The notes under the pieces are model-generated. The model ran no database searches, had not been told where the DNA came from, and saw only the letters and a program-made list of their open reading frames with translations. Made by a program: the position numbers and the translations under genes. Of a stretch of DNA of 50,297 nt, positions 24,489 through 38,450 are shown one piece after another; position 1 is the first letter of the stretch; every line of letters starts with the position of its first letter. This DNA is from a virus, in IMG/VR virus record IMGVR_UViG_3300025116_000097, positions 1 through 50,297 of that record; one strand, given 5' to 3'.

Positions 24489-24565
24489 TGGTTGCGGTGG
24501 TCGGCTTCGATCCGACGACGCGCGGGGTATGAGCCCGCTGCTCTACCAGGCTGAGCTACACCGCG
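24489..24565 (-). tRNA. Phage tRNA-Met (CAU) with initiator-like features
   Basis: A 77-nt cloverleaf with encoded CCA. The acceptor starts C1 and faces A72, the unpaired C-A that marks bacterial initiator tRNA. The anticodon stem GCGGG/CCCGC gives three consecutive G-C pairs next to loop CTCATAC. The D-stem is GCTC/GAGC, so position 11-24 is C-G as in elongators, not the A-U of typical initiators. It is probably a formylatable initiator or a hybrid; elongator Met or Ile(CAU) identity is less likely given C1-A72. Confidence 0.9.
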
Positions 24566-31468: not shown

Positions 31469-31504
31469 GTGATTACTTGTTTAGAAATCATTAAAGTTTG
31501 ACCA
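31469..31504 (+). promoter_or_regulatory. Maintenance promoter for cI (PRM analogue)
   Basis: GTGATT (31469-31474), 17 bases and TAAAGT (31492-31497). The -35 is weak, as expected for a repressor-activated promoter. Transcription would start at or near the cI ATG (31504), giving a leaderless message. Confidence 0.6.
31479..31496. promoter_or_regulatory. CI/Cro operator O2
   Basis: GTTTAGAAATCATTAAAG, the same 6-6-6 layout as O1 with two changed bases. Centre-to-centre distance to O1 is 38 bp. Its right half overlaps the cI -10. Confidence 0.65.
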
Positions 31505-32217
31505 TGACCGACGCAGCCGAAGCACGCAAAGCCGCACTACGCAAATTCCTGCAAGACAACGGCGGGTTTGCGAAAGTGGTCGCGACGTTTGGCCTTACGC
31601 AATCCCAAGCGAGCTACCTGTCGCAGCTAACTGCGCAGGATTCGACAGCATCGTTTGGCGAAAAGAGCGCAAAGAACTGGGAAGACCGTCTGCGCATTGA
31701 CGGCGGCCTGCTTGTCAACGCCGGACGGATGGCGACGATTCCGGCCACAACGGCCCCAGCCATGGCCCCCGCCCCAGCACCCGGCATGCCCGCCGTGGTC
31801 GTCCCACTGCTCGCCAATGCAGGAAGCATGGGGCCTGGCACCGAGGTGCAGCACGACGATGTGCTTGTGGGGCACATCGCCCTGTCAGAGCAGTGGGTAG
31901 CTCGCCGCCTTCAGCCCACCAGCCCCAAAGCCTTGCGCTTCATCCATGCCTACGGCGACAGCATGCACCCCACTTTCGAGGATGGCGATGTGCTCCTGGT
32001 GGACACCGGCATGCGCGACCCAAAATCCATCGACGGGGTGTATGTCATGGCGGCGAACGACCGCGTTTACATCAAGCGGGTGCGCCAGCGCATGGATGGC
32101 GTTGTCGAAATCAGCAGCGACAACGCCACCGTGAAAACCGTGGACGTGCTCAATGGAGATCACCGCATCGACATTCTGGGCCGGGTGGTGTGGTGCTGGA
32201 ACGGGCGGAAGCTGTAG
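31504..32217 (+). CDS. cI: CI-type repressor, S24 peptidase
   Basis: A 237-residue protein. The N-terminal DNA-binding part includes FAKVVATFGLTQSQASYLSQLTAQDS. A Pro/Ala linker leads to NAGSMG (Ala106-Gly107, candidate self-cleavage site). The C-terminal S24 domain has YGDSMHPTFEDGDVLLVD (Ser153) and VYIKRV (Lys191). It keeps lysogeny and should be inactivated by RecA-stimulated autocleavage. ATG 31504 has no Shine-Dalgarno; a TTG six bases upstream is less likely. Confidence 0.93.
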   Translation: MTDAAEARKAALRKFLQDNGGFAKVVATFGLTQSQASYLSQLTAQDSTASFGEKSAKNWEDRLRIDGGLLVNAGRMATIPATTAPAMAPAPAPGMPAVVVPLLANAGSMGPGTEVQHDDVLVGHIALSEQWVARRLQPTSPKALRFIHAYGDSMHPTFEDGDVLLVDTGMRDPKSIDGVYVMAANDRVYIKRVRQRMDGVVEISSDNATVKTVDVLNGDHRIDILGRVVWCWNGRKL

Positions 32218-32923: not shown

Positions 32924-33074
32924 CGCCAATTGCTCATAGTGGAATGCTTGACGATAGGAAGTCTGCCCACATTTCAATACAGCGCGGGGATTGCAACAAG
33001 AGCACAAAGAGGCGTAGCAAGGTACAATTTACCACTTGCTTCTCGCCCCATCATCTATTGGCCAGGAGTCCAAC

Positions 33075-33548
33075 ATGCCAAACGCCACAGAAACTCTTGA
33101 TACCTACTGGGACGGAAAACTCCCGGTTGACGTGAAAAAAATCGCGTCGTCAATGGGAATTCGCGTGGTTCCGAGCACCGGAATAAGTGAAAGCGGCGTC
33201 ATCCAAATCTCTAATGGCAGTCCCGTCATTAAGTACAACACTACCGAAGCAAGTGTGCGCCAGCGTTTTACGATTGCGCATGAGATCGGCCATTTTGCAC
33301 TTGGTCACCTTGAAGGCGCATCGAAGATGTTCCGCGATCCTGCAAGCAACTTTTCATCTGGAGCCAATAAGCCAGAAGAGCGTGAGGCAAACGTCTTCGC
33401 AGCTCGCTTGCTTATGCCGGCGAAAGTAGTTCGGTACGCAGTAAACGAAAAGAAGATTCGTAGCATAGAGCGTTTAGCCGAGATTTTCGGCGTTTCTCAG
33501 GTTGCAATGAAATATCGGCTGATCAATTTAGGAATACTAAGTGGCTGA
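33075..33548 (+). CDS. ImmA/IrrE-type metallopeptidase
   Basis: A 157-residue protein. RQRFTIAHEIGHFALGH has the HEIGH zinc site (His69, Glu70, His73) and EEREANVFAARLLMP gives the third ligand region (Glu104). The C-terminal helices (RSIERLAEIFGVSQVAMKYRLINLG) form a recognition HTH. AGGAG precedes the ATG. Base composition is clearly lower in GC than the neighbours. ImmA relatives cleave phage repressors; here it is followed by an overlapping two-TM protein gene. Confidence 0.9.
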   Translation: MPNATETLDTYWDGKLPVDVKKIASSMGIRVVPSTGISESGVIQISNGSPVIKYNTTEASVRQRFTIAHEIGHFALGHLEGASKMFRDPASNFSSGANKPEEREANVFAARLLMPAKVVRYAVNEKKIRSIERLAEIFGVSQVAMKYRLINLGILSG

Positions 33549-35448: not shown

Positions 35449-35830
35449 CCACCGTCCCGGCCAAGCGTCGGGGCCATCACACATGCCCATGCGTCCCTCG
35501 GGATAGAACGGCCGTTCTGGCGTGGGCAGTTGTGATGGTGAAGGCGAAAGCCTGACGGAGTTCCAGTCACGGCAGCGCGCGAGCCCTGGGACCGATGCGG
35601 GGAGTTCAGTCGCCCCTGGCAGATCGGCTGGCGCCATCAAGAGCGGGTCGGGGTTTCCTGGCCGTGTGCGCAGCAGGTGGAAGCCCTGCACCTTTTCCAC
35701 CGCGCCAGGGCGCTTCTCCTCCCTCCCCTTCTCTCATTCCCCTGGCAGCCCGACGCACCCGGGCAGCGGCATTTTCTTCATCACGGCCCGCACCACGCGG
35801 GCTCTTTTATTCCACCCACCAGGAGCCAGC
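35449..35830 (+). other. Non-coding stretch upstream of the pentapeptide gene
   Basis: No credible gene seen. It contains a GGCGAAAGCC tetraloop hairpin near 35545 and a terminator at its end. It might be a leader or small RNA; nothing recognised. Confidence 0.4.
35786..35809 (+). terminator. Rho-independent terminator
   Basis: GCCCGC ACCAC GCGGGC followed by TCTTTTATT, just before the pentapeptide gene. Confidence 0.75.
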
Positions 35831-36613
35831 ATGGCTGATTCGATAGCGACCACCGAAAGCACCAAGACCAGCGCTGCGGCAGAAACGGCAAAGATCGTCA
35901 TCAAGCACCGCGACACCGACGCGGTCCTTTTTGAATACCAGCCCACCGAAGATCAACAGGCCAGCGGCTTGGCCATGCGCGCGGCGCTCGAAGCTGCCGC
36001 GTCTGGCGGCGCGAACCTTGGCGGCGCGAACCTGTGCGGAGCGTACCTGGGCGGCGCGAACCTTGGCAGCGCGGACCTGTGCGGAGCGTACCTTGGCAGC
36101 GCGAACCTTGGCGGCGCGAACCTTGGCGGCGCGAACCTTGGCGGCGCGAACCTTGGCGGAGCGAACCTTGGCAGCGCGGACCTGGGCGGAGCGAACCTTG
36201 GCAGCGCGGACCTGTGCGGAGCGTACCTGGGCGGCGCGAACCTGTGCGGAGCGTACCTGGGCGGCGCGAACCTGTGCGGAGCGAACCTTGGCAGCGCGGA
36301 CCTGGGCGGAGCGAACCTTGGCGGAGCGAAGCTCCTCGGTGATCGCCCCGTCTTCATCGTCGGCCCCATCGGCTCCCGCTGCGACTACTTCACGTCGTAC
36401 ATCACCGACAAGGGCATCTATCTGAGTGCCGGTTGCTTCTTCGGGTCCGTTGCCGAGTTCACGGAAAAGCTGCACCGGGAACACGGTGAGAACAACCACG
36501 CACAGGAATACACGGCTGCGCTGGAGCTGATTCAGTGCCATGCACGACTGTGGACGCCATCCACTTGTGATACAGCTGCAGAAACCGACCAACAGGAGGT
36601 GGCCCATGAATGA
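35831..36613 (+). CDS. Pentapeptide repeat protein (260 aa)
   Basis: N-terminal about 60 residues (KIVIKHRDTDAVLFEYQPTEDQQASGLAMRAALEAAASGG), then about 21 pentapeptides of the A(N/D)LGG / AYLGG type forming a right-handed quadrilateral beta helix. The C-terminal domain is DRPVFIVGPIGSRCDYFTSYITDKGIYLSAGCFFGSVAEF. Such proteins can mimic DNA (Qnr/MfpA type) but the target here is unknown. AGGAGCC precedes the ATG; the stop overlaps the next gene by eight bases. Confidence 0.88.
   Translation: MADSIATTESTKTSAAAETAKIVIKHRDTDAVLFEYQPTEDQQASGLAMRAALEAAASGGANLGGANLCGAYLGGANLGSADLCGAYLGSANLGGANLGGANLGGANLGGANLGSADLGGANLGSADLCGAYLGGANLCGAYLGGANLCGANLGSADLGGANLGGAKLLGDRPVFIVGPIGSRCDYFTSYITDKGIYLSAGCFFGSVAEFTEKLHREHGENNHAQEYTAALELIQCHARLWTPSTCDTAAETDQQEVAHE
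36010..36325 (+). repeat. 15-bp coding repeats of the pentapeptide domain
   Basis: A tandem array of units such as CTTGGCGGCGCGAAC and close variants. High identity between units (few synonymous changes) suggests recent expansion by slippage or recombination. Confidence 0.9.
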
Positions 36614-36989
36614 CCACATCCACCCCGTCATGCAGCAGGCCCTGGCCGGATTCATCCCACCAGGCTTCCGCAGCGCACCGGTGATGCACGCAACGCAGCA
36701 CCTGCAGGGCATCAACGAAACCCTGCGGGCCGCGCTCAAGAGCTTCGACGCACCGCCCTGCCCCGCTGGACAGTTCGCGTACACGTACCGGCACCCCGAG
36801 CTGGGCGCGCTGGATTGCCACGTCGAGCATGAGCCCGCAGCGCCTGAATGCGGCTGGCCCGAGGAAGTGACGCTGCACGCGGCCTACCTGCGTGGTGTTG
36901 ACATCACAGATCGGCTGACGCGCGACGAAGTGCATGCCATCGAGCTTGCCGCACTGCGTGCCCCCCGAGCATTCCAGGAGCCCGCATGA
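36606..36989 (+). CDS. Hypothetical protein (127 aa)
   Basis: MNDHIHPVMQQALAGFIPPGFRSAPVMHATQHLQGINETLRAALKSF, then PAGQFAYTYRHPELGALDCHVEHEPAAPECGWPEEVTLHAAYLRGVDIT. AGGAGGTGGCCC precedes the ATG. Unassigned accessory early protein. Confidence 0.7.
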   Translation: MNDHIHPVMQQALAGFIPPGFRSAPVMHATQHLQGINETLRAALKSFDAPPCPAGQFAYTYRHPELGALDCHVEHEPAAPECGWPEEVTLHAAYLRGVDITDRLTRDEVHAIELAALRAPRAFQEPA

Positions 36990-37156
36990 CCGCAGCCCCA
37001 TCCAGCCTGCTCCAGGCCCTGGCCGACCTCATCGAAGCCACCGAGGCAGACATCTACACCGACGACCCGGACTTCGCCCCGGCCGTGTGGAACCTGCGCG
37101 CATGCGCATCGCAGGCGAAGGCAGAGCTTGCGAAGGCCAGGCAGGAGCCAGCATGA
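36986..37156 (+). CDS. Small protein (56 aa)
   Basis: MTAAPSSLLQALADLIEATE ADIYTDDPDFAPAVWNLRACASQAKAELAKARQEPA; an acidic helical protein. It starts inside the preceding stop (ATGA) after AGGAGCCCGC, which supports coding. Function unknown. Confidence 0.65.
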   Translation: MTAAPSSLLQALADLIEATEADIYTDDPDFAPAVWNLRACASQAKAELAKARQEPA

Positions 37157-37173
37157 CCGCTGCAATCCACCGC

Positions 37174-37203
37174 TTGCCGATGCCGCAGGGAATGCGCTAT
37201 GAT
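37174..37203 (+). promoter_or_regulatory. Promoter of the C4-type RNA/antirepressor operon
   Basis: TTGCCG (37174-37179), an 18-base spacer and TATGAT (37198-37203). The predicted start, about 37209-37211, falls exactly at the first hairpin of the structured RNA. Confidence 0.7.
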
Positions 37204-37208
37204 GCGGG

Positions 37209-37294
37209 CGTCTCTACCAGCAAAGTAGAGGCCGGGGGTGAGAGCCCGAATGAGGCGGCAAAAGCCGCACTTGCACCAGTGAGCGCGGCTTTTT
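37209..37294 (+). ncRNA. C4-type antisense RNA controlling the antirepressor
   Basis: About 86 nt: hairpin CTCTAC/GTAGAG (37212-37230), a GGGGGTGAGAGCCC stem, a single-stranded-looking GAATGAGGC, then terminator AAAAGCCGC...GCGGCTTTTT (37260-37294). TGAGAGCCCGAATGAGGC (37239-37256) is complementary over about 16 pairs to GCCTCATCGGTCTCTCA (37384-37400) in the downstream leader. The layout equals P1/P7 c4 and related phage C4 RNAs that block icd/ant. A competing hairpin GCGGC-AAAA-GCCGC overlaps the terminator. Confidence 0.85.
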
Positions 37295-37318
37295 CGCGTC
37301 TGAGCCCTATTCATCCGC

Positions 37319-37447
37319 ATGGTTTTGATGACCATGCCGACAGTTTGGCGGTCCGGGCGGAGGGAGCCGCAAGGCTCGCCGGTGCCTCATCGGTCTCTCA
37401 ACCTCCGTTTCGGGCTGCCACCACGTTTGAGAGCGTGGCGGCGGTAA
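37319..37447 (+). CDS. icd-like leader ORF (42 aa)
   Basis: MVLMTMPTVWRSGRREPQGS then PVPHRSLNLRFGLPPRLRAWRR. It spans the C4 target region and ends 26 bases before the antirepressor ATG. In P1, icd translation is required for ant expression, and C4 acts on it. Here the ORF may be a regulatory open frame rather than a functional protein. Confidence 0.45.
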   Translation: MVLMTMPTVWRSGRREPQGSPVPHRSLNLRFGLPPRLRAWRR

Positions 37448-37468
37448 ACCAAACCGCAACTGAGGCAC
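37382..37468 (+). promoter_or_regulatory. Structured leader sequestering the antirepressor ribosome-binding site
   Basis: GTGCCTCA (37382-37389) pairs perfectly with TGAGGCAC (37461-37468), which contains the Shine-Dalgarno TGAGG of the antirepressor. Inside, CTCTCAA pairs with TTGAGAG or, alternatively, GCCACCACG pairs with CGTGGCGGC. The first strand is the same segment bound by the C4 RNA. Confidence 0.65.
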
Positions 37469-37473
37469 GCGCC

Positions 37474-38394
37474 ATGACGCAACATCAAATCGTTACCGTA
37501 GATTTCCACGGTCAATCCATCATCGCATCCGCCATTGACGGCAAGCCCTACGTGGCGCTGAAGCCGCTGGTTGAAAACATCGGCCTGCAATGGGAGGCGC
37601 AATACAAGCGCCTTCAGCGCAACCCGGTTCTGAAATCAACTATGTCCGTTATGGACATGGTTGCCGAAGATGGAAAGACACGCGAAATGCTGTGCCTGCC
37701 GCTGTCCATGCTCAATGGCTGGCTGTTCGGAGTTGACGTCAACCGCGTGCGCGAAGAAATCCGCCCCAAGCTGATCCGCTACCAGACGGAATGCTTCGAG
37801 GTGCTGGCCCAACACTTCATGCCCGCCCAGCGCCCGCACAACCCCGCCATCGACTACGACCGCATCAGCCCCGCCCAGGCGCAAGACCTCAAGGAGCTGG
37901 TGCACGCCGTAGTCGATGCCAAGGTGCAAGGCTTTGGCGAAACGTGGGCGCGGCTGCACCGCAAGTTCCGCGTGAACAGCTACCTCGAACTGCCCGCTGC
38001 CAAGTTTGACGAGGCACGCGATTACCTGCTGGGCAAGCTGCCCGAGACCCCGGCACCGGCCCTGCCCGATATGAACCGCACCCGCGCCGCATTCGACGCA
38101 GCCGCCCAGGCCGCAGCATCGGTACAGACCGCCGTTTTCAACGCCGTGCTGTCCGGCAATGACGAATGGAAATACAGCCGCTGGGTGCTGGCCTTCATTG
38201 ACGACAGCGCCAAGGGCTCGCCCGCCTACGTGCGCCAACTGGAGCACGGCTCATTCACCACCACCTGGCCCCGCCTGGTGCGCGATGTAGGAACCGGCGA
38301 GTGCATGTGCAGCAGCGCCGAACTGCTCGACATGGCCGCAGCCTGCATGCAGCGCCTGCAGCAGCGCGGCACACCGCCACGGCTGGCCGCATAA
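37474..38394 (+). CDS. Phage antirepressor, P22_AR_N domain
   Basis: A 306-residue protein. MTQHQIVTVDFHGQSIIASAIDGKPYVALKPLVENIGLQWEAQYKRLQRNP and LPLSMLNGWLFGVDVNRVREEIRPKLIRYQTECFEVLAQHF form the P22_AR_N domain. The C-terminal helical part is AFDAAAQAAASVQTAVFNAVLSG. It is expected to bind and inactivate repressor. The frame is open upstream to 37153, but ATG 37474 with TGAGG is chosen because the upstream part is the C4 RNA region. Confidence 0.88.
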   Translation: MTQHQIVTVDFHGQSIIASAIDGKPYVALKPLVENIGLQWEAQYKRLQRNPVLKSTMSVMDMVAEDGKTREMLCLPLSMLNGWLFGVDVNRVREEIRPKLIRYQTECFEVLAQHFMPAQRPHNPAIDYDRISPAQAQDLKELVHAVVDAKVQGFGETWARLHRKFRVNSYLELPAAKFDEARDYLLGKLPETPAPALPDMNRTRAAFDAAAQAAASVQTAVFNAVLSGNDEWKYSRWVLAFIDDSAKGSPAYVRQLEHGSFTTTWPRLVRDVGTGECMCSSAELLDMAAACMQRLQQRGTPPRLAA

Positions 38395-38450
38395 CGCTAT
38401 CAAATAGATAGCTGCTAGCGCTTTCTGGTAAAGCGCTAGAGACTGATTTC
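38395..38450. repeat. Comamonadaceae-type intergenic hairpin element, copy 1
   Basis: CGCTATCAAATAGATAGCTG, then the perfect stem CTAGCGCTTT-CTGGT-AAAGCGCTAG and GACTGATTTCA. It follows the antirepressor stop directly. Closely related to the element at 40724. Confidence 0.7.

Follow-up and report, generated by a model that had tools for sequence, protein, structure and literature searches.

The window, by which is meant the whole stretch of 50,297 bases that was analysed (positions 1 to 50,297 of IMG/VR virus record IMGVR_UViG_3300025116_000097), very likely contains a locus of the C4 kind whose target is an antirepressor gene, and this locus is a further example of the already known C4 type. 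We propose a model in which a C4 operon, silencing of the antirepressor gene ant, attenuation in the leader, and a leader RNA directed against C4 are parts of one scheme, and we regard the model as a whole as probable. For the wider proposal, that C4 RNAs in general, that of P1 included, control their own operon by a conserved a1b1 attenuator, and that IsrK of the Salmonella prophage Gifsy-1, being the terminated leader of such a locus, activates in trans by titration of C4, we see an even chance.

The C4 RNA and Its Pairing Partners

In phage P1, C4 silences ant, and silencing at the sites a2 and b2 is an established part of the mechanism. A search of the window with the Rfam models gave a single C4 match (RF01695), at 37341–37425, scoring 50.7 bits (cut-off 45) and covering model positions 1–87 of 87. 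Its antisense arms, placed by the C4 alignment and by pairing tests, are b' (GTGCCTCAT; 37382–37390), in the loop of the third stem, and a' (CTCTCAACC; 37395–37403), which is unpaired. On the 3' side, a2 (37426–37433) is complementary to a' and b2 (37460–37468) to b', with a joint a2b2 score of 38, and b2 holds the Shine-Dalgarno GAGG (37462–37465) of ant, 8 nt 5' of the ATG at 37474. The gene (37474–38394; all features of the locus are on the plus strand) encodes, as the preliminary description had it, an antirepressor, with a P22_AR_N domain (PF10547, E = 1.1e-38) and a match to PHROG 524, anti-repressor Ant (E = 6.5e-61). A score above the cut-off, complementarity of a' and b' to the ribosome-binding site of the downstream gene, and an antirepressor target are thus found together.

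On the 5' side, a1 (37236–37244), which lies inside a hairpin loop, is complementary to a', and b1 (37250–37257) is complementary to b', so that both sites match the downstream C4, as in RNAs of the c4-a1b1 family (RF03163). The complementarity between 37239–37256 and 37384–37400, already noticed in the preliminary description, is real and consists of two blocks, a1:a' and b1:b', with a joint score of 36.5 (p = 0.033 when compared with C4 segments from other loci). A second partner containing the antirepressor Shine-Dalgarno had also been claimed for the latter segment, and indeed 37383–37390 can pair alternatively with 37460–37468, inside which GAGG is found.

All four sites are supported, in addition, by compensatory changes: in the six nearest sequences a1/a'/a2 and b1/b'/b2 change together, far beyond chance. 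The b1/b'/b2 set is TGAGGC/GCCTCA/TGAGGC in the window and in one relative (L046) and TGGAGC/GCTCCA/TGGAGC in the other four of the six, while the a1/a' variants are TGAGAG/CTCTCA, TGGAAG/CTTCCA, TGGCGG/CCGCCA, and TGGAAC/GTTCCA.

The P1 record annotates a1, b1, c4, a2, and b2 in this same order, with a1 and b1 called 'putative'. Further likenesses to the C4 systems of P1 and P7 (immI operon c4-icd-ant) are the C4 fold, b2 at the ribosome-binding site, the antirepressor on the 3' side, and the promoter on the 5' side; in contrast to them, the window has a different antirepressor type (P22_AR_N), no icd, and one detected promoter. From the order of elements it follows that what the preliminary description had observed holds, with the name C4 to be shifted one element downstream. 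It had recognized correctly a C4-type system with an attenuator in the leader, and had exchanged the roles: its 'leader segment' is the antisense arm of C4, and the RNA of about 86 nt that it had called C4 is the upstream target. That this short RNA should nevertheless be C4, with 37384–37400 merely its target leader, is hardly credible; the complementarity does exist, and the RNA lies close to the promoter and ends in a terminator, but the covariance-model search which had been suggested as a check puts a full-length C4 match at 37341–37425 and none on the 86-nt RNA, and P1 has the same element order. The assignment was consequently rejected.

Leader, Terminator, and Competing Hairpin

Among positions 36900–37600 there is one sigma-70-type promoter match, TTGCCG-18-TATGAT at 37174–37203 (9 of 12 matches; 0.0 expected in shuffles), from which a transcript is expected to start near 37210. 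The promoter and the structured RNA ending in a terminator that had been described downstream of it were both confirmed in the sequence, the RNA as a predicted 86-nt leader (37210–37295) of the c4-a1b1/isrK kind. This assignment is sub-threshold, since the leader scores 26.8 bits with isrK (RF01394; E = 5.8e-4, cut-off 50) and 37197–37252 scores 23.6 bits with c4-a1b1 (E = 6.9e-4 in 401 bases, cut-off 46.7); a near relative (L100) scores 52.7 with isrK, above the cut-off. The intrinsic terminator (37261–37294; AAAGCCGC...GCGGCTTT) is a hairpin with arms 37261–37268 and 37285–37292 followed by T5 (37290–37294), has a folding energy of −17.8 kcal/mol, and is kept in five near relatives.

The GCCGC in the 5' arm of the terminator can pair alternatively with GCGGC at the 3' end of b1, forming a competing hairpin, GCGGC-AAAA-GCCGC (37255–37268; −8.4 kcal/mol), which is a candidate antiterminator and has arms that are invariant among the nearest relatives. 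Accordingly, the leader can form one or the other of two hairpins, of which the first contains the antisense target, as in attenuators of the pT181 or P4 CI type. P1 has such an arrangement as well: between b1 and c4 (P1 48254–48309; L012 255–310) there is a terminator-like hairpin together with a hairpin that excludes it, unannotated in the P1 record, where TGCGG/CCGCA competes with the terminator ACCGCA/TGCGGT-ATTTTT.

The leader shares with c4-a1b1 its position, the layout of two hairpins, and the placing of a1 in the second loop, but the Rfam model stops 5' of the terminator and competing hairpin that the window has. Because the model stops there, and because c4-a1b1 stands in Weinberg et al. 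2010 (PMC2864571) as not cis-regulatory, it may be that no attenuator responding to C4 has been reported before; the terminator may have been mentioned earlier in the P1 literature (Citron and Schuster, Hartmann, Heinrich) or in the supplements of Weinberg 2010.

Equilibrium folding gives the window terminator at full length a probability of 0.94 with or without C4. As the terminator wins in either case, any switch in the window must be kinetic. To pass from the competing hairpin to the terminator, the window RNA would have to overcome a computed barrier of about 12 kcal/mol (the median over the loci surveyed below is 11.2), a figure which, being calculated over direct paths, is an upper bound.

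Proposed Mechanism

Consider a transcript that would start near 37210. Those polymerases that read through the leader terminator (37294) would make a transcript with C4 (37341–37425) followed by ant, and C4 would be cut out of it, as expected from P1, where C4 is processed by RNase P from a precursor to about 77 nt (cited in PMC5320573). By pairing of a' and b' with a2 and b2 round the Shine-Dalgarno, C4 would then block translation of ant, of which the P1 mechanism and the compensatory evolution seen here make us highly confident. C4 would pair with a1 and b1 in the leader too. The 3' end of b1 is at the same time part of the 5' arm of the competing hairpin, and for this reason the binding should promote termination; by freeing the terminator C4 would damp its own operon through transcription attenuation, a C4-dependent control that we judge, from the geometry of the sites, to be likely and to have somewhat more than an even chance. 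When in excess, the 86-nt leader would in turn titrate C4 and raise ant expression; by analogy with IsrK of Gifsy-1 it is a likely trans-acting anti-C4 RNA, this titration step having slightly better than an even chance. The suggestion that C4 could free the ribosome-binding site does not hold for C4, which pairs with a2 and b2 and very probably has the usual silencing sign, and would fit instead the short leader, if this acts like the short IsrK (PMC4825925).

The scheme resembles, in its logic only, that of phage P4, where the CI RNA, a processed antisense RNA lying between complementary sites seqA and seqC, causes premature transcription termination (according to the summary in PMC4825925). 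The window differs from P4 CI in that its terminator is intrinsic and faces a competing hairpin, and in that translation, too, is a target.

Survey of Related C4 Loci

The main set comprised 131 distinct C4 loci, and with an out-of-sample set about 200 loci were compared. When a match to a1 and b1 was defined by a joint score of 30 or more between the a' and b' of a locus and its own upstream region, it was found in 98% of the 131 loci, compared with 10.7% after C4 segments had been swapped between loci. The corresponding figures for a2 and b2 are 89% and 16%, with the start codon a median of 7 nt past b2. A terminator 3' of b1 occurs in 81% of the loci and in 24% of shuffles, and about 20–30% of loci have no detected terminator. 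A competing hairpin of −4 kcal/mol or better is present in 79% of the loci with a terminator, against 21% of shuffled sequences (68% and 17% when averaged over clusters); 44 different arm pairs are represented, and in 87 of 94 loci at least 2 nt of b1 lie within the 5' arm of the hairpin. When the partners were permuted among 47 sequence clusters, the observed value was 10.61 and the expected one 8.70, and 0 of 2000 permutations reached the former. This permutation and the shuffles are the main tests for the competing hairpin; a pairwise version based on tail probabilities is weak (0.38 and 0.44, where the null value is 0.5), owing to the frequency of one arm pair.

The tests were devised after the first loci had been seen, and were therefore run again, with thresholds frozen, on 69 new loci drawn from the order to which another genome belongs. 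There a1b1 was found in 93% (20% in the control), the terminator in 70% (14%), and the competing hairpin in 93% (17%), these hairpins being mostly of one sequence type with the arm pair GGCGC/GCGCC.

In the nascent RNA the competing hairpin has a predicted median probability of 0.95, which falls to 0.01 when a1 and b1 are kept from pairing, so as to mimic the binding of C4. At full length the median probability of the terminator is 0.85 when the RNA is free and 0.94 when a1 and b1 are blocked. The terminator thus usually wins at full length, and from this it follows that a switch would rest on kinetics.

Some genomes of one order (G886, G986, G999, G902, and G852; loci L161, L164, L165, L178, and L179) carry 12–14 dispersed C4 copies. 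In several, a strong hairpin with no T-run comes after a1b1, as if the terminator had been lost. One locus (L123; G667:C9:1700-3092) has four tandem C4 copies within 1.4 kb, where each differing a' is matched by its own a1.

Gifsy-1 IsrK as the Leader of a C4 Locus

In Gifsy-1 (L141) the Rfam matches follow each other on the minus strand in the order c4-a1b1 (34329–34277), isrK (34316–34240), and C4 (34214–34131), all above their cut-offs. From this order it follows that IsrK is the terminated a1b1 leader of a C4 locus, and that the 'orf45' segment coincides with C4. Like the window leader, IsrK (RF01394; PMC4825925) is a short terminated leader upstream of a C4 match and an antirepressor gene, and pairs with the C4 segment; unlike the window, where no orf45 was seen, Gifsy-1 has orf45 with a role in translation, and its competing hairpin is weak, with no clear strong one present. 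C4 RNA as a term is absent from the IsrK paper (PMC4825925), and our literature search gave no paper in which STnc1160 and C4 are connected; an annotation of Xylella lists isrK beside C4.

When positions are numbered from the start of IsrK, G28 and G31 are in a1, C159 and C162 are in the unpaired a' of C4, and G114–C175 is a pair in a C4 stem. In the published measurements without extra IsrK, translation of anrP is 4 for the wild type, 93 and 218 for a1 mutants, 484 and 926 for a' mutants, and 224 and 327 for the double mutants (PMC4825925, Table 1). This order is what the C4 model predicts, since a' mutants lose binding to both a1 and a2, doubles regain binding to a1 only, and a1 mutants keep binding to a2. 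With IsrK supplied in trans, transcription rises 8-fold and anrP translation 139-fold, and a1 mutants of IsrK are inactive (PMC4825925); in our re-reading of these published numbers, the trans effects suggest a sponge for C4. The IsrK authors themselves likened IsrK to seqA and CI of P4 and raised the possibility that STnc1160 acts as a termination factor, but additional STnc1160 failed to counter IsrK in Gifsy-1 (PMC4825925). The same paper gives tagged-protein evidence for translation of orf45, which the re-reading in terms of C4 does not explain away.

Alternative Readings

The model in which C4 both silences ant and attenuates its own operon has to be weighed against several rivals. If the locus were a plain P1-type one, ant would be silenced through a2 and b2, a1b1 and the terminator would be without a regulatory link, and the competing hairpin would be incidental. 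Silencing at these two sites is what is established for P1, the listing of c4-a1b1 as not cis-regulatory in Weinberg et al. (PMC2864571) agrees with this reading, and so does the success of the terminator at equilibrium in the window. Against this stand the conservation of a1b1, which is kept as well as a2b2, the excess of competing hairpins over shuffles and permutations in two sets, and the finding that a1 mutations in Gifsy-1 alter expression in cis (PMC4825925), and we therefore hold this reading to be unlikely. Of equally low probability is the reading by which termination is constitutive and yields a trans-acting anti-C4 leader like the short IsrK, with C4 having no influence on termination. 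The 86-nt RNA does hold both a1 and b1, IsrK, too, comes from a C4 locus, and the 139-fold rise of anrP translation, together with the inactivity of the a1 mutants, is what such an RNA would bring about; yet a conserved hairpin that overlaps b1 and excludes the terminator would be left without explanation, as would the 8-fold rise in transcription, unless it came from stabilisation of the message.

The model of the IsrK authors dispenses with a separate C4 RNA: the leader pairs with the downstream segment of the same long transcript, and the short RNA, acting in trans, brings about the translated fold. Native gels and mutants speak for it (PMC4825925), and intramolecular pairing of a1 and b1 with a' and b' is possible in the window too. 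However, that very segment of Gifsy-1 scores above the cut-off as C4, an 80-nt processed species exists there (PMC4825925), and the double mutants regain silence only partly, as they should if there is a third partner, a2, so that we think this model quite improbable. The Acinetobacter 'group 2' antisense RNAs were considered as terminated a1b1 leaders and rejected, being opposite-strand transcripts.

If the C4 attenuation model is correct, P1 C4 and Gifsy-1 IsrK, which have been studied separately, are joined in one scheme, and the 'putative' a1 and b1 sites acquire, from the comparison of about 200 loci, a directly testable role in attenuation and titration. The model further predicts a feedback circuit regulating the amount of the RNA by which prophage induction is controlled.

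Surroundings of the Locus

The closest full-length relatives of ant (L002, L003, L004, and L005) are without a match to the Rfam C4 model, and C4 control and ant are for this reason to be seen as separable modules in the ant family. At the DNA level, no relatives of the window were found in phage records. Upstream on the same strand, at 31498–32217 and 33036–33548, are genes for an S24-type CI-like repressor, on which Ant probably acts, and for an M78 peptidase of the ImmA/IrrE type. A gene for a pentapeptide-repeat protein (35522–36613) ends shortly 5' of the C4 promoter. Directly 3' of ant, at 38397–38440, are two adjoining inverted repeats, GCTATCAAATAGATAGC and CTAGCGCTTTCTGGTAAAGCGCTAG; these repeats were not found in the other loci compared. 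The window has, further, a tRNA-Met (CAT) on the minus strand at 24489–24565, in the phage interior, and a tRNA-Leu (CAA) at 41–125, at its extreme left end, which is perhaps the edge of an integration site.
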